Positions 36,497-51,630 of a DNA stretch of 57,515 nt are shown piece by piece; positions within the stretch are counted from its first letter, which is position 1; every line of letters begins with the position of its first letter. A program made the position numbers and the translations under genes. A model generated the notes under the pieces. The model searched no databases. It was given only the letters and a program-made list of their open reading frames with translations, and was not told the DNA's origin. Source of the stretch: an uncultured Nitrospiraceae bacterium. GTDB taxonomy: Bacteria > Nitrospirota > Thermodesulfovibrionia > Thermodesulfovibrionales > Dissulfurispiraceae. The DNA lies in the NCBI GenBank assembly GCA_903822005.1, contig CAIJNL010000029.1, positions 1-57,515 on the forward strand. Reading direction: 5' to 3'.

Positions 36497-36529
36497 ATCG
36501 GCCGGATTATTCGTACTAGTCCGGCTGAT
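36497..36529. terminator. Terminator hairpin between the transporter gene and kdpE
   Basis: Arms ATCGGCCGGATT (36497-36508) and AGTCCGGCTGAT (36518-36529) form a 12-bp stem with two G-U pairs on the plus strand and a 9-nt loop. It lies between two convergent genes and overlaps the last codons of kdpE. The following T-run (ATTTTG) is short. Confidence 0.5.
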
Positions 36530-37232
36530 TATCCATTTTGCATCGCAGGCGGTATCCAACTCCCGGCTCATTGATAAAAAATTTAGGGCAGGCCGGGTCC
36601 TCTTCGAGTTTGTGCCTCAGCATTCCCATGTAAACACGAACATAATGCATCTGGCTGGCATATGCCGGGCCCCAGATTTCCTTTAACAGTTGTCTGTGTG
36701 TGACCACTTTCCCCGCATTTCTTATCAGATATGAAAGCAGTTTGTATTCTATGGGCGTGAGATGCACCTCGGAATCGCTGATAAAGACCTGTCTTTTCTC
36801 AAGATCCACCTTCAGATTGTCGAGCACGAACAGAGGCTCGGCGGGACCTCCCTGCTGAATTACCCTGTGGCGAAGGGCGACGCGGATTCTTGCAAGCAAT
36901 TCTCCGGCACTGAACGGCTTGGTCAGATAATCGTCAGCCCCGCTGTCCAGGGCCGTGATCTTGTCGCGCTCCTGTTCGCGGGCCGAGATGATAATCACGG
37001 GGACACCTGACCACTCGCGTATCCCTGCAAGCACATCGAGGCCGTCCATATCCGGCAGCCCGAGGTCAAGAAGTATTACATCCGGATTACGCGTAGCCGC
37101 ATCTGTAAGCCCTTCATGACCATTCTCCGCCTCCACCAGTTCATATCCCTGGCTCTGAAGAGTGACCCGCAGAAAGCGTCTCATTTGCGGTTCATCATCA
37201 ATAAGTAATATACGGGCGCTTTTGTCAGACAT
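36516..37232 (-). CDS. kdpE: KdpE, response regulator of the kdp operon
   Basis: The 238-aa OmpR-family regulator has a receiver (phosphorylation site D56 in LLDLGLPDMDG; lysine in LTKPFSAGEL) and a winged-helix DNA-binding domain (LTPIEYKLLSYLIRNAGKVVTHRQLL, YVRVYMGMLRHKLE). Phosphorylated by KdpD, it activates kdpFABC when K+ or turgor is limiting. The gene begins two bases after kdpD. A site nearly identical to the E. coli KdpE operator lies upstream of the operon at 45144-45162. Confidence 0.95.
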   Translation of the reverse strand: MSDKSARILLIDDEPQMRRFLRVTLQSQGYELVEAENGHEGLTDAATRNPDVILLDLGLPDMDGLDVLAGIREWSGVPVIIISAREQERDKITALDSGADDYLTKPFSAGELLARIRVALRHRVIQQGGPAEPLFVLDNLKVDLEKRQVFISDSEVHLTPIEYKLLSYLIRNAGKVVTHRQLLKEIWGPAYASQMHYVRVYMGMLRHKLEEDPACPKFFINEPGVGYRLRCKMDNQPD

Positions 37233-37234
37233 AA

Positions 37235-39922
37235 TTATACAGTCACCTCAGAATCTACCGCGGGCGGCACTTCCTCAAGCGGAAGGGTGAAGCGAAAAGA
37301 TGCGCCGCCTTCCGGCCTGTTCCCTGCCCATATTCGTCCGCCATGTGCCGTTATGATGGCTTTGCAAATAGTCAGTCCCAAACCTATGCCGCCTGCACCA
37401 GTCGAACTTCTAAAGAATTTGTCGAAGATTCGTTCCTCGTCACCAGGCTTTATGCCGGGACCGCTGTCAGAGACCTCGACAAGTACGCTGTCCTTGTTAA
37501 TAGATGATGCTATTTCGAAAGAGGCGGATGCAGATGTATATTTTACGGCATTTTCGAGGAGGTTCATCAGCACCTGTTCGATCAGCAAAGGATCGAAGGA
37601 AACGAGAGGCAAGTCTGCCGGCATATTGACCGTGACTGAATGGCCCCTGAGTTTTTCCGCAAGGCGGTTAAGAACCGCCCCGACTATCTCTTCCATATGC
37701 AGCCATTCCTTTTTAACGGTTATGGCGCCGGATTCTATGCGGGTCATATCGAGAACGTTGCGGATGATGCGATTGAGGTGCTCGGACTCTTCAATGATGG
37801 TCTGCACGAGTTCGCGTTTGCCTCCGGCATCGAGTAAAGCATCCGGCTGCAGCAATGTTGTGGAGGCGCCTGTTATCGCCGCAAGCGGCGTGCGCAGGTC
37901 GTGCGACAAAGAACTCAACAGCGTATTCCTGAGGCTTTCGGTCTCGGCCTTTAGAAGGGCCTTCTGCGCCTCTTCTCCCATCAATGCGCGCTCAATGGCC
38001 ATGGCAATCTGATGCGCGAAGTTTTCGATGGCGTGGATCTGTTCCTGGTCAAAAAAGGCAGAGTCTTTAAGAATGATCCCGATTATGCCCACAGTCCTCG
38101 AAGAGGCGACCATAGGCAGATAGAGTCCGCCTGCACCCGGAAGTGTATCTGTATTCCTGCCCGCGTGTTGTTTGTGATCAAATGCCCAGCTCGCCACGCT
38201 TAATTCGCGTTCATCGAGTTCCAGATTTTCGGGCTTTGCCGTCAATATTGAGAGGGCGCTGTTTTCATCAGGGACCAGTATAACCGTATCCCTCGAAAAA
38301 GCCTCGCTGATATGCTTCACCGCTATTTCGCCCAGCCGTTTAATGCCTCGTTCATGTACAAGTTCTCCACTCAGACGATAAAGGGCGGCAGTGCGTCTCT
38401 CTCGCCTGCGAGCGGCATCAGCATGTTCTCTGATGCGCAGAGTCAGGCTGCTTGTGATGAAAGCCACGACAAACATGACCGCAAATGTCACCAAATATTT
38501 GATGTCAGTCACGGCGAAAGTATAAAAAGGCGGAATAAAAAAGAAATCAAAGGCAGCCACGCTCAGAAATGAAGCGAGCAGCGCCGGGCGTTTGTCGGTC
38601 CAGCTCGCTATCAGCACCACAAAGAGTATGTATGTCATGGCCACATCAACAAGTGTCAGATAATAGTCCATTATAAAAGCGAGTCCGGTGCCTGCTGCGA
38701 CACCCAGGATACTGATCAGCCATTCTCTTGGGGCCGTCTTTTTTACGGCTGTCCGTGTCTGAATGGCCGATGCCGGGACAGCGACATCTCCAGATATGAC
38801 ATAAACCTCAATATCTCCGCTGCCGCGTACAATGTCATCAAGCATGGACCCGAATATTAAGTCTTTCCAGCGGGGATGCGTCGGTTTACCAATGATAATT
38901 TTTGTGACATTGCGGCTGCGCGCATAGTTCAGTATCTCGTTGCTGGCCTTGTGTCCCGAGAGTACGACGGTCTCGGCTCCAAGGCTTTCAGCAAGCCGCA
39001 TGTTATCGGCCAGTTTCCTGATATCTTTTTCAGAAGGCCTCACCGTGGAAGGAGCCTCAACATTGACTGCAATCCATTCGGCATGGAGGCCGTCGGCCAT
39101 GCGCTTGGCCGCCCTGATCAGTCTGACAGCAAATGGGCTCGGGCCAACGCAGACAAGAATGCGTTCTGCAGCAGGCCATACGTCATGCACACCCTTATTG
39201 CGCCTGTAGTCCTGCATCTGGGCGTCTACACACTCGGCAGTGCGGCGCAGTGCGAGTTCGCGCAGTGCGAGAAGGTTGCCTTTACGGAAAAAATTCTTTC
39301 GTGCGCGAGCCGCCAGGTCGGGCACATAGACCTTTCCTTCCTGCATCCTCTGCAGGAGATCGTCAGGCGGCAGGTCTATCAATTCCATTTCATCGGCCCT
39401 CTCGAGGACCGAATCAGGCAGGGTTTCGCGGACGGTGACACCGGTTATCTGGGCGACAATATCATTAAGGCTTTCTATATGCTGAACATTCAACGTTGTA
39501 TAGACGTTGATTCCAGCATCCAGCAGCTCTAACACATCCTGCCAGCGTTTATTGTGGCGCGATCCCGGCGCGTTGGTATGCGCCAGTTCGTCCACAAGTA
39601 TGATGGAAGGTTTTCTCTTCAGGGCCTCATCAAGATCAAATTCCTTAAGGGTCGCGCCTTTATAATCGATATTGCGTCGCTCAAGTATCGTGATATCTGA
39701 CAATAAGGCTGCCGTTTCCGCGCGGCCATGAGTCTCCACCAGCCCTGCTAGCACATCCACGCCCTCAATCAGTTTTTGCTGTGCTGCTGCCAGCATCGCA
39801 TATGTCTTTCCGACTCCGGGGGCAGCGCCGAAGAATATCTTCAGTTTTCCCTGATGCCTGCGCTCTTCTTCAGCCTGCACCTGTCTTAGCAGCAGGTCGG
39901 GATCAGGACGGCGTTCTTCCAC
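37235..39922 (-). CDS. kdpD: KdpD, K+-sensing histidine kinase
   Basis: The 895-aa protein has the full KdpD layout: N-terminal KdpD domain with Walker A GAAPGVGKT (32-40), a universal-stress-like domain (about 250-370), four membrane helices of the DUF4118 unit (about 400-500), a GAF-like domain, HisKA with H674 (SLSHDLRTP; E. coli uses H673) and HATPase (SDSGPGI, GIGLGLT). It senses low K+ and phosphorylates KdpE. It starts with GTG behind GGAG, 91 bases after the exported-protein gene, so it may have its own weak promoter as well as read-through. Confidence 0.96.
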   Translation of the reverse strand: MEERRPDPDLLLRQVQAEEERRHQGKLKIFFGAAPGVGKTYAMLAAAQQKLIEGVDVLAGLVETHGRAETAALLSDITILERRNIDYKGATLKEFDLDEALKRKPSIILVDELAHTNAPGSRHNKRWQDVLELLDAGINVYTTLNVQHIESLNDIVAQITGVTVRETLPDSVLERADEMELIDLPPDDLLQRMQEGKVYVPDLAARARKNFFRKGNLLALRELALRRTAECVDAQMQDYRRNKGVHDVWPAAERILVCVGPSPFAVRLIRAAKRMADGLHAEWIAVNVEAPSTVRPSEKDIRKLADNMRLAESLGAETVVLSGHKASNEILNYARSRNVTKIIIGKPTHPRWKDLIFGSMLDDIVRGSGDIEVYVISGDVAVPASAIQTRTAVKKTAPREWLISILGVAAGTGLAFIMDYYLTLVDVAMTYILFVVLIASWTDKRPALLASFLSVAAFDFFFIPPFYTFAVTDIKYLVTFAVMFVVAFITSSLTLRIREHADAARRRERRTAALYRLSGELVHERGIKRLGEIAVKHISEAFSRDTVILVPDENSALSILTAKPENLELDERELSVASWAFDHKQHAGRNTDTLPGAGGLYLPMVASSRTVGIIGIILKDSAFFDQEQIHAIENFAHQIAMAIERALMGEEAQKALLKAETESLRNTLLSSLSHDLRTPLAAITGASTTLLQPDALLDAGGKRELVQTIIEESEHLNRIIRNVLDMTRIESGAITVKKEWLHMEEIVGAVLNRLAEKLRGHSVTVNMPADLPLVSFDPLLIEQVLMNLLENAVKYTSASASFEIASSINKDSVLVEVSDSGPGIKPGDEERIFDKFFRSSTGAGGIGLGLTICKAIITAHGGRIWAGNRPEGGASFRFTLPLEEVPPAVDSEVTV

Positions 39923-40013: not shown

Positions 40014-40382
40014 CTATTTGCAAATAAAAGCGGCCGGCGTTACAAGATATAATACCGATCCTTTCCTGGCCATGTCTCCAGGCCTTATATTACCATCAAC
40101 AACCTCGGCCCTGATGTAATTATCACCGCCGAAGGAGACTATACGGATCTTTCCAGCCTCAAGGACAGTTCGACAGGGATCTTCACGATAGACCGTCAGT
40201 ATGTCACCTGTAGCTGCTGCGTCCTTTATCTCAGCAGTGCCGCTGTGGAAAAGATAAACACTTGTTCCGGCTTTCGCGCCGGTCAGTTCTTCCGGAAAAT
40301 ACGAAGTGGCGGCAGAAATTGCAGGCATCAAGCAAAAGAATGAAACCATAACAATGAGCAGTATCTTTGCTTTCGCTTTCAT
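40014..40382 (-). CDS. Small exported protein inside the kdp operon
   Basis: The 122-aa product begins with a clear signal peptide (MKAKAKILLIVMVSFFCLMP, cleavage likely after AISA near residue 24). The mature part is about 98 aa, beta-rich, with AGTSVYLFHSGTAEIKDAAA and ILTVYREDPCRTVLEAGKIR, and ends AAFICK. Two cysteines could form a periplasmic disulfide. It lies 9 bases after kdpC and before kdpD, so it is co-transcribed with the pump. I do not recognise the family. A periplasmic accessory to K+ uptake or sensing is an inference from position only. Confidence 0.75.
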   Translation of the reverse strand: MKAKAKILLIVMVSFFCLMPAISAATSYFPEELTGAKAGTSVYLFHSGTAEIKDAAATGDILTVYREDPCRTVLEAGKIRIVSFGGDNYIRAEVVDGNIRPGDMARKGSVLYLVTPAAFICK

Positions 40383-40391
40383 ATCAGCTCC

Positions 40392-40970
40392 TTAAAGTTT
40401 CTGCGCTTGGTCAAGCGCAAGATTCAGTTTCAGTACATTTACCCTCGGCTCGCCGAGTATCCCGAACTGGCGGCCGTCGGTATATTTTGCGACAAATGAG
40501 CGCACCGCTGACTCATCGATCCCGCGTGCACCGGCGATCCTCTTCACCTGGTATTCGGCCGCAGCAGGGCTGATGTGCGGATCGAGTCCGCTGCCTGAGG
40601 CCGTGGCGAGATCAATCGGGACCTGCGTTGCAGACTGAGGATCAGCTTCACGCAAGGCATCTATTCGCCCCTTCGCCTGTTTGACCAGATCAGGATTTGT
40701 CTGTGACAGGTTAGACCCTCCCGAGGAGGCAGAATTGTACGGAAATGGAGCAGTTGCCGAGGGCCTTCCCCAGAAATATTTCGGGTCATCAAACGGCTGC
40801 CCTATAAGTGATGAACCCGCAGGTTTATTGTCCTTCATAATGATGCTGCCATTTGCCTGCTCAGGAAAAAATAACTGCGCCAGCGCGGTAACTGTCATGG
40901 GGTATAGCCCCCCGGCTATTACGCTGAAGATAAACAAAGAAACTATAGTCGGTCTTATCAGTTTTAACAT
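40392..40970 (-). CDS. kdpC: KdpC, accessory subunit of the K+-ATPase
   Basis: The 192-aa protein has a single N-terminal membrane helix (about 10-32) and a periplasmic domain with the KdpC motifs [35 protein letters not shown] and [11 protein letters not shown]. KdpC stabilises the complex and raises its K+ affinity. It begins 8 bases after kdpB. Length is typical. Confidence 0.96.
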
Positions 40971-40978
40971 ATATCACC

Positions 40979-43051
40979 TCACACCAGATGCAGAAAATTA
41001 ACGAGCATATCTATCAGCTTGATACCGATAAAGGGCACTATCAGTCCGCCCACGCCATAAATAAGTATATTGTTGCGCAGTACAATGCCGGCGCCCCCCG
41101 GACGGTAAGTGACGCCGCGCAGGGCCAGCGGTATCAGCGCAATAATTATTACCGCATTGAATATGACGGCAGAGAGTATGGCGCTCTGAGGTGTCTGGAG
41201 TCCCATTATGTTCAGGACCGCCATTTGCGGATAAGTGGCAATGAACACTGCAGGCAGTATCGCAAAATATTTTGCGACGTCGTTTGCTATGCTGAAGGTC
41301 GCGAGGGTGCCGCGCGTCATCAATAACTGCTTGCCGATTTCTACGATTTCAATCAGCTTGGTCGGGTTCGAATCGAGGTCAACCATGTTGCCTGCTTCTT
41401 TTGCGGCCTGTGTGCCTGTGTTCATCGCAACGGCCACATCCGCCTGCGCCAGTGCTGGCGCGTCATTGGTGCCGTCACCGGTCATGGCGACCAGTTTTCC
41501 GCCTGCCTGGTGCTTCCGTATCAAAGCGAGTTTTGTCTCCGGTGTTGCCTGGGCAAGGAAATCATCGACCCCTGCTTCTGCGGCCACAGCAGCAGCTGTC
41601 ATAGGGTTATCACCGGTTATCATGACTGTAGAGATGCCCATCTTTCTCAGCTCGGCAAAACGTTCCCTGATCCCGCCCTTCACTATATCATTCAACCGGA
41701 TAACGCCAAGCACATCTTTTCCGTCAGTTACCACAAGCGGGGTCGCTCCTTCGCGCGCTACCTCATCAACAGTTACCGTGACGTCTGCAGGGAAAACACC
41801 GCCCTTAGATGTCACAAAGGCAGCTACTGCATCAGCTGCGCCTTTGCGTATCTGTCTGCCGTTAAGATCAACTCCGCTCATGCGGGTTTGGGCTGAAAAG
41901 GGAATGAATTTTGCTCCAAGCGACGTTATGTCGCGCTCACGGATACCGTACTCTGTTTTTGCCAGTACCACTATGCTTCGGCCTTCGGGTGTCTCATCAG
42001 CAAGAGAGGCCAGCTGGGCAGTATCTGCCACGGCATTGATCTCCCTTCCCTTGGCGGGGATAAAAGCGGTTGCCTGGCGGTTGCCGAGAGTGATGGTCCC
42101 GGTCTTGTCGAGAAGCAGCACATCCACATCACCCGCTGCTTCAACCGCTCGGCCGGACGTGGCTATGACATTGGCCTGGATAAGGCGGTCCATGCCCGCG
42201 ATGCCGATTGCTGAAAGGAGCCCGCCTATAGTAGTCGGTATAAGGCATACAAGCAGCGACACGAGCACCACTATGGTGGCCGGATTCCCCTGTCCTGCCG
42301 CAGCGACACTGAACATAGAAAAAGGCAAAAGCGTCGCGGTGGCAAACAGGAAAATGATGGTCATACCCGCAAGCAGTATATCCAGGGCTATTTCATTAGG
42401 CGTCTTCTGCCGCTTGGCGCCTTCGACCATTGATATCATCCTGTCGAGGAAGGTCTCGCCGGGGTTTGCGGTGATCTGCACAATTATCCAGTCTGAAAGC
42501 ACAATGGTGCCGCCGGTTACGGCGCTGCGGTCGCCGCCGCTTTCGCGTATGACCGGTGCGCTTTCCCCCGTAATGGCGCTTTCGTTCACCGATGCGACGC
42601 CGGCGACGACCTCGCCGTCACCCGGGATAATATCACCTGGTTCCACCAGGACATAATCACCCTTTCTCAATTGGGAAGACGGGACAGGCGTGACACCGGC
42701 ATCCTGTTTAGGTTCCGAAAGCTTCTTCGCATTTACATCCTTGCGTGAGCCTCTCAGGGCATCGGCCTGGGCCTTGCCGCGGCCTTCGGCCATCGCCTCG
42801 GCGAAATTGGCGAAGAGCACTGTTGCCCAGAGCCAGAGCGAGATCGAAAAAATGAACCATGGAGACTCCGCACCCGGTACAAACAGGGACTGTACAAAGA
42901 GCAGCGAGGTCAGGATGCTGCCGACCTCTACCACAAACATTACCGGATTGCGAAGCTGGTTGAGCGGATTCAGCTTTATAAATGAATCTATCAATGCGCG
43001 CTTCATAATTCGCCCATCGAAGAGGGAAGACTTTTTCTTTTTATTGATCAT
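40979..43051 (-). CDS. kdpB: KdpB, P-type ATPase subunit of the K+ pump
   Basis: The 690-aa protein is a type IA P-ATPase. The phosphorylated aspartate is D315 in [14 protein letters not shown] (E. coli D307). TGES lies in the actuator domain ([15 protein letters not shown]), and the hinge [19 protein letters not shown] is intact. Membrane helices flank these in the usual pattern. It hydrolyses ATP to drive K+ transport through KdpA. It begins 17 bases after kdpA. Confidence 0.97.
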
Positions 43052-43068: not shown

Positions 43069-44853
43069 TTACTTATAGAGCATCAGGTGCTCTGCGATCG
43101 GCCCCAACCCAAGGGTTGGAAAGAAGGTCAGCGCGCCGACGATAATTACAACACTCGCCAAAAACAGGATGAAGAGCGGCGTATGTGTCGGCAATGTGCC
43201 TGCGCTTGGCTGGACATATTTCTTTGAGGCAAGGGACCCGGCTATGGCCAGTATGGGTATCATGGTCCAGAACCTGCCGAACAGCATTGCTATTCCGCCT
43301 AAGGTGTTGTAGAACATGGTATTTGCATTTAGACCGGCAAACGCGCTGCCGTTATTGTTGGCCATTGATGAAAAGGCGTACAGCACCTGCGAGAACCCGT
43401 GCGGACCGGGATTGGAGATACCGGCGATGCCGTCAGCAGTAACAGATGCTATGGCTGTTCCGAGCAGGACAAAGCAGCAGGGGACAAGGATTACTATTGC
43501 TGCCATCTTGACCTCATAGGCCTCGATTTTTTTGCCGAGATACTCAGGTGTTCGTCCCACCATAAGGCCGGAGATAAATACAGCGACGAGCGCAAAAGCG
43601 AGCAGTCCATAAAGACCGGAGCCAACGCCGCCGAATACGACCTCGCCGAGCTGCATCAGCACCATCGGCGCCAGTCCGCCGAGAGGACTGAACGAATCAT
43701 GCATGGCATTTACAGATCCGTTAGAAGCCGCAGTGGTAGCAGTGGCCCAGAGCGCCGAATTGGCAACGCCGAATCTGAGTTCCTTGCCCTCCATATTGCC
43801 GCCCGACTGATCTATGCCCAGCGGTGAGAGGAACGGATTTGCAGCCTGTTCACTGGAATAACAAAAGAAAAGCAGAGGGATAAAAATTACGGCCATCGCG
43901 GCAAGCAGTGCCCAACCCTGCCTCCTGTCACCGATCATCCTGCCAAAGGTATAGCAGAGTGCGGCCGGTATAAGCAGGATCGCGAGCATTTCCAGGAAAT
44001 TCGAAAACGGCGTCGGGTTTTCATAAGGATGCGCTGAATTTACATTGAAAAAACCGCCGCCATTGGTGCCGAGCTGTTTTATTGCAATCTGGGATGCTGC
44101 CGGGCCAAGAGGCAGGGACTGTTCAGTGGCCTTGGCAGGCTCTGTAACCGGCTTTCCGTCAGAGGTCAGTACCGCTTTGCCGTTGGCATCCATCTTGGGG
44201 TTATCGTAATTGATAGTCTGCACAAGCGGCACAGTTTTATACGGACTGAGGTTTTGGACGACTCCCTGAGAGACGAGTATTATCGCCATGATCAGGCTTA
44301 AGGGCAGCAAAATATAGAGGAACGAACGCGTGAGGTCGACCCAAAAATTGCCGATCGTGCTTGTGGTCCTCCGTGAAAAGCCGCGGATGAGCGCAACAAG
44401 CACAGCCATGCCCTGGGCAGCTGATACAAAATTCTGAACAGCAAGCCCCGACATCTGCGTGAGATAACTCATGGTCGATTCTCCGCCATATGCCTGCCAG
44501 TTGGTATTGGTAATGAAACTCACTGCGGTATTGAAGGAGAGGTCAGGAGCGACACCCGGGAAGTTCTGCGGGTTCAACGGCAGTATCCCCTGAATACGCA
44601 TAAGCGTAAACAAGAGGATAAAGAACGCGAATTTGAAGAGCAGGCATGCCACTGCATACATCTTCCAGGACATCTCTTCTTCGGGCCGCGTGCCGAGCAG
44701 CCTGTAAATCAGACGCTCAACCGGGCCGAGAACGCGGGTTATCAGTAATGATTCACCCTGATAGACCTTTGCCATATAACTGCCGAGCGGTTTGACAAGA
44801 AGACCCAGTACTGTCAGGTACAAGATAATCTGAATTATTCCGTTTGTCGTCAT
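43069..44853 (-). CDS. kdpA: KdpA, K+-translocating subunit
   Basis: The 594-aa membrane protein belongs to the superfamily of K+ transporters with four pore-loop repeats. Recognisable segments include [34 protein letters not shown] and [14 protein letters not shown], each holding one selectivity-filter strand. The ATG overlaps the kdpF stop by ATGA. It binds K+ with high affinity and forms the entry tunnel towards KdpB. Confidence 0.97.
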
Positions 44854-44942: not shown

Positions 44943-44988
44943 ATTAACCTCCACATCCAAACAGTGTTTGTAATTGGCGAAACGTCGA

Positions 44989-45075
44989 TTACTGTGTAAG
45001 CTTTTCCGCAAGTTTTACCAGCAGCCATGAAAGCGCAAAGAAAGCTACGGTGATACCGACAAATAATATATCCAT
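44989..45075 (-). CDS. 28-aa single-helix membrane protein leading the kdp operon
   Basis: An ATG behind AGGGGG opens a 28-codon frame beginning MDILFVGITVAFFALSWLLV and ending KLAEKLTQ. It is one hydrophobic helix with a basic C-terminal end, and lies 46 bases before kdpF as the first gene after the predicted kdp promoter. From memory, similar MD-FV-T--FFALSW peptides occur at the head of other bacterial kdp operons, without assigned function. It may be another small pump subunit (inference). Confidence 0.7.
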   Translation of the reverse strand: MDILFVGITVAFFALSWLLVKLAEKLTQ

Positions 45076-45093
45076 ATAGCACCCCCTTTTCAG

Positions 45094-45099
45094 ATTGTA
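45094..45099 (-). promoter_or_regulatory. Predicted -10 element of the kdp operon
   Basis: TACAAT on the minus strand (5 of 6 to consensus) lies 18 bases before the first start codon. No good -35 is seen at 16-18 bases, as expected for a promoter that needs KdpE. The KdpE operator begins 44 bases upstream of it. Confidence 0.5.
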
Positions 45100-45143
45100 T
45101 CAGCAAATTGCATCAAATAGGAGTAAAGAAGGGCAGATGTAGC

Positions 45144-45162
45144 GTAAAAAAAGTATAAAAAT
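45144..45162 (-). promoter_or_regulatory. KdpE operator
   Basis: The minus strand reads ATTTTTATACTTTTTTTAC, identical over 19 bases to the core of the E. coli kdpFABC KdpE-binding site as I remember it. It sits about 57-75 bases upstream of the expected transcription start, the same spacing as in E. coli. The rest of the 327-base gap (45163-45402) is AT-rich and shows no gene; it must also hold the promoter of the divergent kinase gene. Confidence 0.8.
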
Positions 45163-45402
45163 TACTATATAAAGATTATATGTACTCCCGGTTCCCAGGC
45201 TGTGAGCTTTTGCATCATCGCGAAATTGCAGTCGTTGGCCTATAGTGTGATAAAAAAACTTTAAAGTGGAATCTGTCTTTCTTATTCTGCTTGACTTAGG
45301 GCCGGTCAGTAATGAAATATATAGCAAATTGAGTAATCTTTGGCAAAGTTAAAATGAGGGTCCAACCTGATACTGGGAAATATCTTGAAAGGAAGGGCAG
45401 CC

Positions 45403-48508: not shown

Positions 48509-49333
48509 ATGGACTCACAACTTGTCGTTTTCAAGGGCAAACAGATTCGCCGGACGCTGCACAATAACGAATGGTGGTTCTCGATTGTTGATGTGGTTGC
48601 GGTTCTTACTGATTCAGTTGATCCAAACGGTTATATTAAAGACATGCGTCGTCGGGATGATGAGCTTTCCAAAGGGTGGGGGCAAATTGCCACCCCCCTT
48701 TCAGTCCAGACCGAAGGCGGCCTGCAAAAAATGAACTGCGCTAACACCGAAGGTATCTTCCGCATTATTCAATCTATCCCATCGCCTAAGGCAGAACCAT
48801 TCAAACGCTGGCTGGCAAAGGTTGGCTATGAGCGTGTGCGGGAGATCGAAAACCCAGAACTTGGAACACAGCGCACTCGCGTACTCTATAAGGCAAAAGG
48901 CTACTCAGACGACTGGATTGAAAAACGCATGCGCGGCATCGCAATCCGCGAAGAGCTTACTGACGAATGGAAAAAGCGTAACGTGAAGGAAAAGAAAGAA
49001 TATGAAATTCTCACTGCAGAAATCGCAAAGGCCGCCTTCGGCATAACGCCGGGCACACACAAGAAGCTAAAAGGCCTGAAGCGTGAGAACCTGCGCGATC
49101 ATATGAACGACCTTGAACTGATCTTTTCGATGCTCGGTGAGGCGGCTACTACCGAGATCACGCGGGTTGATGATGCACAGGGCTTTCACCAGAGCAAGAA
49201 TGCCGCACGGAAAGGTGGTGCGGTTGCTGGTACTGCACGGAAAGACCTGGAAAAGAAGATCGGCAAAAAGGTTGTGTCAGGTGAGAATTATATGACAACA
49301 CCGGAAAAGGTCAAACGGCTTAGAAACAAGTGA
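48509..49333 (+). CDS. Bro-N domain protein (phage antirepressor-like)
   Basis: The 274-aa protein begins with a Bro-N domain (about 5-110: VVFKGKQIRRTLHNNEWWFSI, VVAVLTDSVDPNGYI, NTEGIFRIIQSIPSPKAEPF). The Bro-N fold occurs in phage antirepressors and baculovirus BRO proteins and binds DNA. The middle (YSDDWIEKRMRGIAIREELT) and the C-terminus (EITRVDDAQGFHQSKNAARK) are conserved in stand-alone chromosomal and mobile-element members; the tail is lysine-rich. It lies alone, 95 bases before cas3 on the same strand. Phage origin is likely; a function linked to CRISPR is not shown. Confidence 0.8.
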   Translation: MDSQLVVFKGKQIRRTLHNNEWWFSIVDVVAVLTDSVDPNGYIKDMRRRDDELSKGWGQIATPLSVQTEGGLQKMNCANTEGIFRIIQSIPSPKAEPFKRWLAKVGYERVREIENPELGTQRTRVLYKAKGYSDDWIEKRMRGIAIREELTDEWKKRNVKEKKEYEILTAEIAKAAFGITPGTHKKLKGLKRENLRDHMNDLELIFSMLGEAATTEITRVDDAQGFHQSKNAARKGGAVAGTARKDLEKKIGKKVVSGENYMTTPEKVKRLRNK

Positions 49334-49428
49334 TGCAGACCAAGACATTGCGGAGGTACATGTGAATCGTATTTATTAGGGAAGGGTTAAGATATGGTGT
49401 CTTTTATGAATATCGAAAAGGCGGCGAC

Positions 49429-51630
49429 ATGATATCGAAAGATATATTGGCTCATATCGCAGAAGACGGCAGAAGGCATGGTCTTTGCGCACATCTGAGA
49501 GAAACTGCGGGAAGGGCAACTGCGTTCGCCGAGTCTTTTTCGTCAGCTGATTGGGCCTGGAATGCCGGGCTGCTGCACGATCTCGGCAAAGCTGACGTTT
49601 TGTTTCAGGCATATATCCGTCGCGAAAATGGGATGGATGATCCTGAATATGAGGGAATTGGCAGGAATAGAGTAAATCACTCAAGCGCAGGTGCTGCATT
49701 TGCCGAAGGACAGTTCAATCAGGCCAATATGCCAGTTGGCAGAGCACTATCATACATAGCAGCAGGGCATCATGCCGGATTGCCAGATTGGTATTCAGCC
49801 GATACGGGGAATGCAGCGCTCCAAAACAGGCTTATCGAAGGCAGAGCAAATCTTGAGCGTATTCTGCCTGCTGCAAAAAAACTATCTTACAAACTGCGCG
49901 CCATAACCAAACCGCCATTATTTGTGAAACCGGCTAATTTTCACCTGTGGGTGAGAATGCTTTATTCATGCTTAGTTGATGCCGATTTTCTGGATACCGA
50001 AGCTTTCATGAACGCAGAACAAGGACAGGCACGCGCTGGGTTCAAGCCCCTGATTGAATTGAAAGATGCTTTTGATAACTATATGCTGAACAAAACTGAA
50101 AAAGCACCTCAAACAAGCTTGAACATAATACGGCAAGAAATTCTCGCTGCTTGCAGATCTGCTGCCTATCAAGCTCCAGGGCTTTTCTCTTTAGCTGTAC
50201 CGACCGGCGGAGGGAAAACCCTTTCAAGCATGGCGTTTGCCCTCGATCATGCGATACGATATGGCAAGCAGCGCATTATTTATGCCATTCCCTACACAAG
50301 TATTATCGAGCAGACTGCTGAAATATTTTCAGATATCTTCGGTGCTGAAAACATCGTTGAACACCATAGCAATCTTGACCCGGAGCGCGAGACGCAACGC
50401 AGCTGCCTGGCTTCGGAAAACTGGGATGCTCCGATTATTGTTACCACTAATGTCCAATTCTTTGAATCACTCTTTGCTTACCGCTCAAGCCGTTGCCGCA
50501 AACTACATAATATCGTCAACAGCATAGTTATTCTGGATGAAGCTCAAATTCTCCGGCCTGAGTTGCTTATGCCTTGTACAGACACGCTTAATGTCCTGAC
50601 GCGCCATTACGGCGTAACCATTGTGCTATCTACCGCAACTCAGCCGGCATTGCCTGGGATTGATGCACCGCGCGAGATTATGGCTAATCCTGCCGAACTA
50701 TACAAGAAACTAAAACGGACTGAAATTCTTTCACCCAAATCATTTGAGAAGCCTGACGAATGGGAAATACTTGCACTGGAACTCCGACGACATCAACAAG
50801 TGCTCTGTGTTGTAAACTCGCGCCATGACTGTTATGATCTTTTCAGACTGATGCCCGAGGGGACAATCCACCTTTCGGCGCTTATGTGCGGCAAACACCG
50901 CACTGAGGTCATCAAGGAGATAAAGCAACGACTGAGCAATGGAGACTCCATACGCGTTATCAGTACGCAGCTTATCGAGGCAGGTGTCGACATTGACTTT
51001 CCCGTAGTCTATCGTGCTTTAGCCGGACTTGACTCGATAGCTCAGGCTGCTGGCCGCTGTAACCGCGAAGGCAAACTAAATGCAGAGGGTCAGCTTGGAC
51101 AGGTGCATATATTTGTGCCACCAAAACCGGCACCTCGAGGGCTCTTGCATAAAGGGGAAAGCACGACGAAGGAACTGCTTTTGCTTCCTGAATTTGATAT
51201 GCAGAAGCCGGAATCATACACCAGATACTTTTCCTGTTTTTATGCAAAAGTGAACGACACCGGCACACGCTTTATGGAATGGCTGACACCGGATGATTCT
51301 CATACACTTGCCGTGCATTTTCGGACAGCGGCACAGAATTTCAGGTTTATTGATGATCAGGCGCAACAGTCCGTTATTGTCAGATACAAGGATAGTGAAA
51401 AGCTGATAAATACTTTGAAGCAGATTGGGCCAAATCGCGCATTGATGCGCAAGCTGCAACGATATATAGTAACCCTGCCTGCACGTATGGCAACTCGTAT
51501 GCTTGAAGATGGCAGGCTTGAAGAAATTGTTCCCGGTATTGTGGTCCAAAGCAGTCTGAAGATTTACGACAACTCGGTTGGGCTTGATATATACAAAGAT
51601 GCATTGCCGGTTGAGGATTTGGTTATATAA
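49429..51630 (+). CDS. cas3: Cas3 nuclease-helicase, type I-C
   Basis: The 733-aa protein carries an N-terminal HD nuclease domain (H22, H50-D51 in LLHDLGK, then IAAGHHAGLPDW) and a superfamily 2 helicase: Walker A with K263 (VPTGGGKT), motif II DEAQ at 370-373, and motif VI QAAGRCNREGK. DEAQ in place of DEAH is, from memory, common in this subtype. Cas3 is recruited by target-bound Cascade and degrades DNA. It begins the cas operon; cas5 follows after 24 bases. All catalytic motifs seem intact. Confidence 0.96.
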   Translation: MISKDILAHIAEDGRRHGLCAHLRETAGRATAFAESFSSADWAWNAGLLHDLGKADVLFQAYIRRENGMDDPEYEGIGRNRVNHSSAGAAFAEGQFNQANMPVGRALSYIAAGHHAGLPDWYSADTGNAALQNRLIEGRANLERILPAAKKLSYKLRAITKPPLFVKPANFHLWVRMLYSCLVDADFLDTEAFMNAEQGQARAGFKPLIELKDAFDNYMLNKTEKAPQTSLNIIRQEILAACRSAAYQAPGLFSLAVPTGGGKTLSSMAFALDHAIRYGKQRIIYAIPYTSIIEQTAEIFSDIFGAENIVEHHSNLDPERETQRSCLASENWDAPIIVTTNVQFFESLFAYRSSRCRKLHNIVNSIVILDEAQILRPELLMPCTDTLNVLTRHYGVTIVLSTATQPALPGIDAPREIMANPAELYKKLKRTEILSPKSFEKPDEWEILALELRRHQQVLCVVNSRHDCYDLFRLMPEGTIHLSALMCGKHRTEVIKEIKQRLSNGDSIRVISTQLIEAGVDIDFPVVYRALAGLDSIAQAAGRCNREGKLNAEGQLGQVHIFVPPKPAPRGLLHKGESTTKELLLLPEFDMQKPESYTRYFSCFYAKVNDTGTRFMEWLTPDDSHTLAVHFRTAAQNFRFIDDQAQQSVIVRYKDSEKLINTLKQIGPNRALMRKLQRYIVTLPARMATRMLEDGRLEEIVPGIVVQSSLKIYDNSVGLDIYKDALPVEDLVI

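Follow-up and report, generated by a model that had tools for sequence, protein, structure and literature searches.

Results

The kdp locus

The window, that is, the whole stretch of 57,515 nucleotides analysed here from an uncultured Nitrospiraceae bacterium, carries a complete kdpFABC-DE operon that runs leftward on the minus strand in the order 28-aa ORF, kdpF, kdpA, kdpB, kdpC, 122-aa ORF, kdpD and kdpE (Table 1). Among NCBIfam models, the KdpE equivalog matches the response regulator best, with a score under its cut-off (287.8 of 325 bits); the best solved relative of the protein is KdpE of 4kny, and the nearest KdpE among the matches listed belongs to Nitrospiraceae bacterium Ngb-4 (67%).

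Table 1. Features of the kdp promoter, operon and neighbouring DNA in the window
Feature	Position	Strand	Basis or description
19-mer ATTTTTATACTTTTTTTAC	45144..45162	-	search of the window and comparison with E. coli; same letters as in the kdp promoter of E. coli
Half-site S1 TTTTTATA, distal pair	45154..45161	-	predicted KdpE site; weight matrix and half-sites in the available part of PMC3264566
Half-site S2 TTTTTACG, distal pair, 11 bp after S1	45143..45150	-	predicted KdpE site; weight matrix and available part of PMC3264566
Proposed half-site S3 TCTTTACT, proximal pair, 32 bp after S1	45122..45129	-	pair score
Proposed half-site S4 ATTTGATG, proximal pair, 11 bp after S3	45111..45118	-	pair score
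-10-like hexamer TACAAT, TG at the extended -10 position	45094..45099	-	62 bp downstream of the S1 start; gap of 11 bp to S4
One-helix ORF MDILFVGITVAFFALSWLLVKLAEKLTQ, 28 aa, between promoter and kdpF	44989..45075	-	similar ORFs in relatives
kdpF, 30 aa	44850..44942	-	PF09604 E 8.7e-10, TIGR02115 E 2e-09
kdpA	43069..44853	-	PF03814 E 2.8e-248
kdpB	40979..43051	-	E1-E2 ATPase and Hydrolase domains, operon position
kdpC	40392..40970	-	PF02669 E 7.4e-75
122-aa ORF between kdpC and kdpD	40014..40382	-	without convincing family match
kdpD, sensor kinase	37235..39922	-	PF02702 E 7.4e-96, Usp, DUF4118, HisKA, HATPase_c
kdpE, response regulator	36516..37232	-	Response_reg and Trans_reg_C
Divergent histidine kinase, 936 aa	45385..48195	+	KdpD-like DUF4118 membrane domain, PAS, GAF
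Bro-N protein and Cas3-like HD helicase	48509..51630	+	beyond the divergent kinase, in DNA of lower G+C

The 28-aa ORF in front of kdpF matches no family in Pfam or NCBIfam. Upstream of kdpA, 71 of 283 loci contain small ORFs with the signature FFx[LIVMA][SA], versus 2 of 283 on the antisense strand; at least one of the 71, that of locus L306, resembles a chance hit. In E. coli, the region upstream of kdpA holds no ORF with this signature. On the other side of the promoter, the divergent kinase may share the control of the intergenic region.

The 19-mer and its E. coli counterpart

Upstream of the operon lies a 19-mer that equals, at 19/19 bases, the sequence found upstream of kdpF in E. coli K-12 MG1655, and comparison of the two promoters thus bears out the identity claimed by the first-pass annotation. 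The claim of an equal distance also holds: between the end of the 19-mer and the -10-like hexamer (TACAAT, 45099-45094, in the window and TACCCT in E. coli) we counted, by eye, 44 bp and 43 bp, respectively. A placement at -57 to -75, proposed at the same time, is compatible with the E. coli footprint, given as -72 to -50 in the available part of the published account (PMC3264566), on the assumption of a transcription start some 7 nt past the -10. The letters next to the 19-mer differ between the two promoters (C in the window and A in E. coli before it, A and G after it), and the first start codon follows the 19-mer at 68 bp in the window (28-aa ORF) and at 83 bp in E. coli (kdpF). A blastn search with the 96-bp promoter (45080-45175) returned no match in E. 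coli genomes, presumably owing to the shortness of the sequence in common.

With A or T at 17 of its 19 positions, the 19-mer could be taken for a chance AT-rich stretch. We rejected this reading and regard its probability as negligible, since shuffling leads to an expectation of 0 such matches, the motif is shared across kdp promoters (see below), and motif, place, operon and regulator all agree. The 19-mer is the sole match within the window at up to three mismatches, and its 18-base core has one exact match in the whole genome, the other 13 among the matches listed all showing three mismatches.

The site is built of two TTTA-starting 6-bp direct repeats 5 bp apart (TTTATA-N5-TTTACG), and a weight matrix trained on kdp promoters, that of the window included, gives it 25.3 bits. 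For the E. coli kdpFABC operator, the available part of the published account names TTTATA and TTTACA as KdpE half-sites and reports that a 21-bp fragment with S1/S2 is enough to bind the DNA-binding domain of KdpE (PMC3264566); the sixth base of S2, A in the E. coli operator, is G in the window. Judged from its sequence and surroundings, the 19-mer is very likely the KdpE operator of the kdpF-A-B-C-(122-aa ORF)-D-E operon at an E. coli-like position. In its identity it is ordinary and belongs to a known kind of KdpE operator.

The kdp promoter motif across bacterial groups

KdpA loci were gathered with the Pfam KdpA profile (E ≤ 0.001). Genomes with kdpA numbered 82/295 in the phylum of the window, 80/249 in that of Paraburkholderia, 39/148 in that of Bacteroidales, 41/121 in that of Pleurocapsa, 36/119 in that of an acidobacterial MAG, 13/79 in that of a Rokubacteria MAG, 16/119 in each of two draws listing the same genomes apart from the centre, and 19/30 behind loci of the KdpE matches listed (30 of the 80 loci). 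Groups bear the name of the genome at the centre of each draw, not of each member genome, and the upstream regions represent the best 30 matches per draw and part of the rest, not every matching genome. From 341 KdpA loci, 58 were dropped (two copies of the window, two with less than 250 bp upstream, two without a matched N-terminus and 52 duplicates), which left 283 regions. Plain match counting on TTTATA-N5-TTTAC turned out too blunt, with at least 9 of 11 matches in 71 real versus 60 reversed regions, and a weight matrix, seeded with a consensus written after this count, was therefore trained on 274 upstream regions.

The trained motif reads roughly T[CT]TTDA[CT][AG]-N3-T[CT]TTDA[CT][AG], a tandem TYTTDAYR-N3-TYTTDAYR, and is present at posterior >0.9 in 169 of the 283 deduplicated regions: Nitrospirota 56/71, Pseudomonadota 61/77, Cyanobacteriota 13/33, Bacteroidota 12/31, Acidobacteriota 11/30, Methylomirabilota 5/12, the doubly drawn set 6/16, others 4/12 and E. 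coli 1/1. No motif reaches this level in the remaining 114. Sequence-level retention across phyla had been called unusual for an operator, and a collection of kdp promoters had been proposed as a check; the collection shows conservation to be common, and operator conservation in 'various genera' had been published in 2012 by Narayanan and colleagues (PMC3264566, in its available part). A T-rich stretch bound by the kdp response regulator has likewise been seen in several bacteria, as described in the available part of PMC5716572. It should be noted that the matrix was seeded with this consensus and trained on upstream regions of the same collection, so that the detection counts are partly circular; this does not apply to the controls and to the fixed-offset test described below. 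At a level of at least 20 bits, the motif occurs in 95 of 283 real regions, versus 3 when they are read as the reverse complement, 0 when reversed and 0.2 on average when shuffled.

Presence of the motif tracks the KdpE gene: among 123 loci that have at least 8.5 kb downstream (or are the window), it was found in 84 of 100 with KdpE in the locus versus 9 of 23 without it (Fisher p 3e-5). The available part of PMC3264566 names R193, R200 and T215 as DNA-contact residues of KdpE. Both arginines are kept in KdpE of the window and are present in 105 and 106, respectively, of 107 KdpE rows; position 215 is N in the window, and among the 107 rows it is T in 94 and N in 12. The kept contact residues offer a reason for the conservation of the motif across phyla.

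Scanning the genome of the window with a degenerate pattern for more KdpE targets gave one exact match, that of kdp itself, and 70 with one mismatch; this total of 71 does not exceed the 79 of the reversed control, so no wider KdpE regulon can be claimed from it. The main text of a P. aeruginosa transcription factor atlas contains no KdpE.

Motifs on the opposite strand

For M. smegmatis, a 22-bp, A-rich KdpE site was defined by footprint and gel shift and, in the available part of the report, described as having no noticeable similarity to E. coli and other KdpE sites (PMC5401905). This site, which represents bench data from outside the training of our matrix, fits the tandem motif on its complementary strand with 18.17 bits, a score that none of 20,000 shuffles reaches on either strand. 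Scores of at least 15 bits on the strand opposite to kdp were found in 15 of the 283 regions, and in 11 of these 15 they beat the best forward score. The reverse-complement control may therefore hold some real sites. Among the 11 loci whose best motif faces against kdp are L045 (Arthrobacter), L052, L277 and L278, and such an orientation is possibly, in part, an actinobacterial trait. Locus L052 is recorded as Sporosarcina; its kdp site resembles that of Arthrobacter L045 and the draws around both list the same genomes, so the record may be misnamed.

A proposed second pair of half-sites 32 bp from the first

In the column profile around 165 aligned sites, a second T-rich zone is seen. In the window it contains S3 and S4, which score 15.06 bits as a pair at d=32, the next best value among offsets 22-49 being -6.78. 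A second pair above 5 bits lies at exactly +32 in 55 and at exactly -32 in 18 of the 169 promoters, none of them counted twice, and 196 control offsets give a mean of 0.21 and a maximum of 2 promoters (offsets 21 and 43 in either direction, which overlap a true half-site, were omitted from the control; +43 had 4). The 73 two-pair promoters form 45 clusters at 60% identity and come from six named groups, two mixed sets and E. coli. In E. coli, S3 and S4 are TTTTTGCG and TCTTTGCA and reach 7.07 bits, G replacing a near-invariant A in both half-sites.

With half-site matrices trained without the group in question, and anchors still taken from the full matrix, the pair at +32 was recovered in 20/56 Nitrospirota, 11/61 Pseudomonadota, 7/13 Cyanobacteriota, 5/12 Bacteroidota and 2/11 Acidobacteriota promoters. 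One high control value in this test (12/56 in Nitrospirota) agrees with the 12 Nitrospirota promoters whose partner lies at -32. The -32 class comprises these 12, all five Methylomirabilota promoters with a site and one from Acidobacteriota, and in it the stronger pair is the proximal one. A supposed Nitrospirota family with a single pair was discarded as wrong, as 12 Nitrospirota promoters carry a partner at -32. Partial partners occur in further promoters, 12 with an S4-like half-site only and 7 with an S3-like one only. At the 5-bit threshold no second pair was found in 96 of the 169 promoters, including 46/61 of Pseudomonadota and 23/56 of Nitrospirota.

The position of the -10 follows the same geometry. 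With a -10 matrix written by hand, the peak falls at +61 in the +32 class (42% above 3 bits) and at +29 in the -32 class (61% above 3 bits), so in both classes 18 bp separate the start of the last half-site from the -10, leaving a gap of 10 bp after its end. In the window, this gap is 11 bp and the -10 lies at d=62, next to the d=61 peak. A consensus scan of 44980-45400 detected no -35/-10 pair using TACAAT and one hit elsewhere (shuffles give a mean of 1.2). As far as letters can tell, the arrangement is thus pho-box-like, a repeat pair ending 11 bp before a TACAAT that has no paired -35.

It might be argued that the distal pair is the only KdpE site and that RNA polymerase rather than KdpE reads the T-rich repeats at +32/+43, as part of the core promoter or as bending sequence. 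The E. coli footprint and minimal fragment do show S1/S2 only (PMC3264566, available part), and the spacer between S3 and S4 prefers C at +41 (0.78 of the cluster-weighted +32 class), which could reflect a contact with sigma. However, S3 and S4 follow the same half-site matrix in held-out groups and do so at one exact offset, with a 17-bp spacer, a -35 would fall across the S3-S4 gap and coincide with neither half-site, and in 18 promoters the stronger pair itself occupies the proximal place; the lack of a -35 paired with TACAAT in the scan points the same way. We consider a single KdpE site unlikely. A second pair exactly 32 bp from the first was not found in the open-licence literature searched (this excludes Sugiura 1992, the KdpE-DNA structure paper and the C. 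acetobutylicum papers). KdpE has been placed at kdp by ChIP-exo in E. coli (PMC7657598), the available part of which does not give a base-level layout.

Origin of the operon and rarity of the exact match

How rare is an exact match within such a motif? Relative to the E. coli 19-mer, Nitrospirota sites show a median of 5 mismatches and Pseudomonadota sites one of 8. Only 7 of 10,596 between-group pairs are exact: the window pairs with E. coli and with three further rows, and E. coli, which forms its own group, with the same three, whose KdpE is 79-83% identical to that of E. coli. The pooled matrix emits the 19-mer at 4.6e-5 per site, so that about 0.0026 occurrences are expected in 56 Nitrospirota sites if columns are independent. 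The identity is rarer than the pooled matrix predicts, which weighs somewhat against a purely incidental match and makes it noteworthy, yet it does not single out transfer.

The first-pass annotation had seen in this identity a sign of horizontal spread of the complete regulon, and an exchange of operon and operator between enteric bacteria and the Nitrospirota lineage, with the operator kept unchanged, would account for both the 19/19 match with its low expectation and the patchy presence of kdpA in the family of the window, where, among the genomes listed, it was found in the window's own genome and one of the same genus and was absent from the other 19. The protein trees led us to reject this explanation. 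Of the 283 loci, 107 yielded a KdpE and 280 a KdpA sequence, and 111 of these 280 entered the KdpA tree; these were quick trees, restricted to KdpE and KdpA, and the partial sequence of L387 was too short for them. KdpE of the window falls within an all-Nitrospirota set of 9 of 107 rows and its KdpA within one of 3 of 111 rows, each with SH-aLRT 99, and neither protein groups with enteric ones; by path from the window's KdpE, that of E. coli takes place 57 among 106. Identity to the window proteins is 55% (KdpE) and 54% (KdpA) for E. coli, versus 71% and 80% for L287, a locus of the same order. Also, G+C of the operon (52-53%) resembles that of the DNA to its left (47-53%), and right of 48 kb it falls to 46-48%. 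Finally, the promoter of L387, from the same genus, differs from the 19-mer at 2 of 19 bases and that of L287 at 1, so the 19-mer is not fixed in this lineage, and these differences are easier to reconcile with a hit inside a degenerate motif than with a block carried over whole. The claim of horizontal spread of the regulon thus finds no support, and exchange with enteric bacteria appears highly improbable.

A gain from inside the order is a different matter. The operon could have come, for example, from the family coded f9 and brought its operator along, with the E. coli match being incidental. The patchy occurrence of kdpA in the family fits such a history, as does the KdpA of L287 (family f9), which at 80% identity is almost as close as the partial KdpA of same-genus L387 (81.5%); these two findings together make a gain from inside the order possible. 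Repeated loss within the family explains the same pattern, however. We mention this scenario tentatively, as a less probable one.

Discussion

Our data point to a KdpE-dependent promoter of a complete kdpFABC-DE operon, with two KdpE pairs placed 32 bp apart and an E. coli match that arose without transfer, as a close hit within a slowly changing motif. Taken jointly, we consider these statements probable. Shortage of potassium would cause KdpD to phosphorylate KdpE, whose dimers would then bind head-to-tail on the 11-bp direct repeats (TYTTDAYR-N3-TYTTDAYR) and induce the operon. The distal pair S1/S2, contained in the 19-mer, would be the counterpart of the footprinted E. coli site, and the proximal pair S3/S4, which ends some 10-11 bp before the -10, would stand in for a -35 in pho-box fashion. 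As 32 bp is close to three helical turns, both pairs would face the same side of the DNA. A KdpE dimer sitting at the -35 place could touch sigma, and the distal dimer might raise its occupancy by cooperation. What the sequences themselves show is the identity of the 19-mer, the spread of the motif over several groups, the sharp spacing of 32 bp, the steady distance to the -10 and the kept contact arginines of KdpE. Weighing against the model are the E. coli footprint, confined to the distal pair, the loss of the conserved A from both proximal half-sites of E. coli, and the 96 of 169 promoters in which no second pair reaches the threshold.

Going beyond the window, we think it fairly likely that many phyla, E. 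coli included, share an ancient scaffold with KdpE half-sites at 0, 11, 32 and 43 and a -10 at about 61, in which the strength may lie with either of the two pairs and the place of the -35 is taken by the proximal one. Footprinting in E. coli would then have caught the stronger half only, and the mycobacterial site would be the same motif on the other strand.

Cross-genus conservation of the operator is already known from the available part of PMC3264566, and it is the two-pair layout that is worth testing. From this layout, KdpE sites can be predicted in genomes for which no more than a T-rich patch had been described, and reading the motif on the complementary strand removes the apparent mycobacterial exception. 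A perfect operator match between phyla is by itself no sign of gene transfer. As a two-component system, KdpDE has been studied extensively, and it serves as a structural model for regulators of the OmpR/PhoB family; the open-licence literature searched does not state in what way KdpE engages RNA polymerase, and a four-half-site layout kept across phyla provides a concrete, testable hypothesis on this point.

Among known systems, the pho box has an 11-bp period and a 10-bp distance to the -10. Like the promoter of the window, the box of PhoB, a member of the OmpR/PhoB family, places direct repeats over the -35, where they overlap it in a modelled complex (PMC3348028, available part). It differs in half-site letters and regulator, and the window has in addition a second pair at a fixed 32 bp. 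The T-rich kdp sites of Deinococcus and other bacteria resemble the window in being a T-rich stretch bound by the kdp response regulator, but no half-site or two-pair anatomy is described for them in the available part of PMC5716572. The M. smegmatis site shares the tandem motif with the window and carries it on the strand opposite to the printed one. Closest of all is the E. coli kdpFABC operator, with the same 19 bases, the same 11-bp half-site period, the same operon and regulator and a distance to the -10 that is equal within 1 bp; the two promoters part in the proximal pair, which at 15.06 bits is strong in the window and at 7.07 bits degenerate in E. coli.
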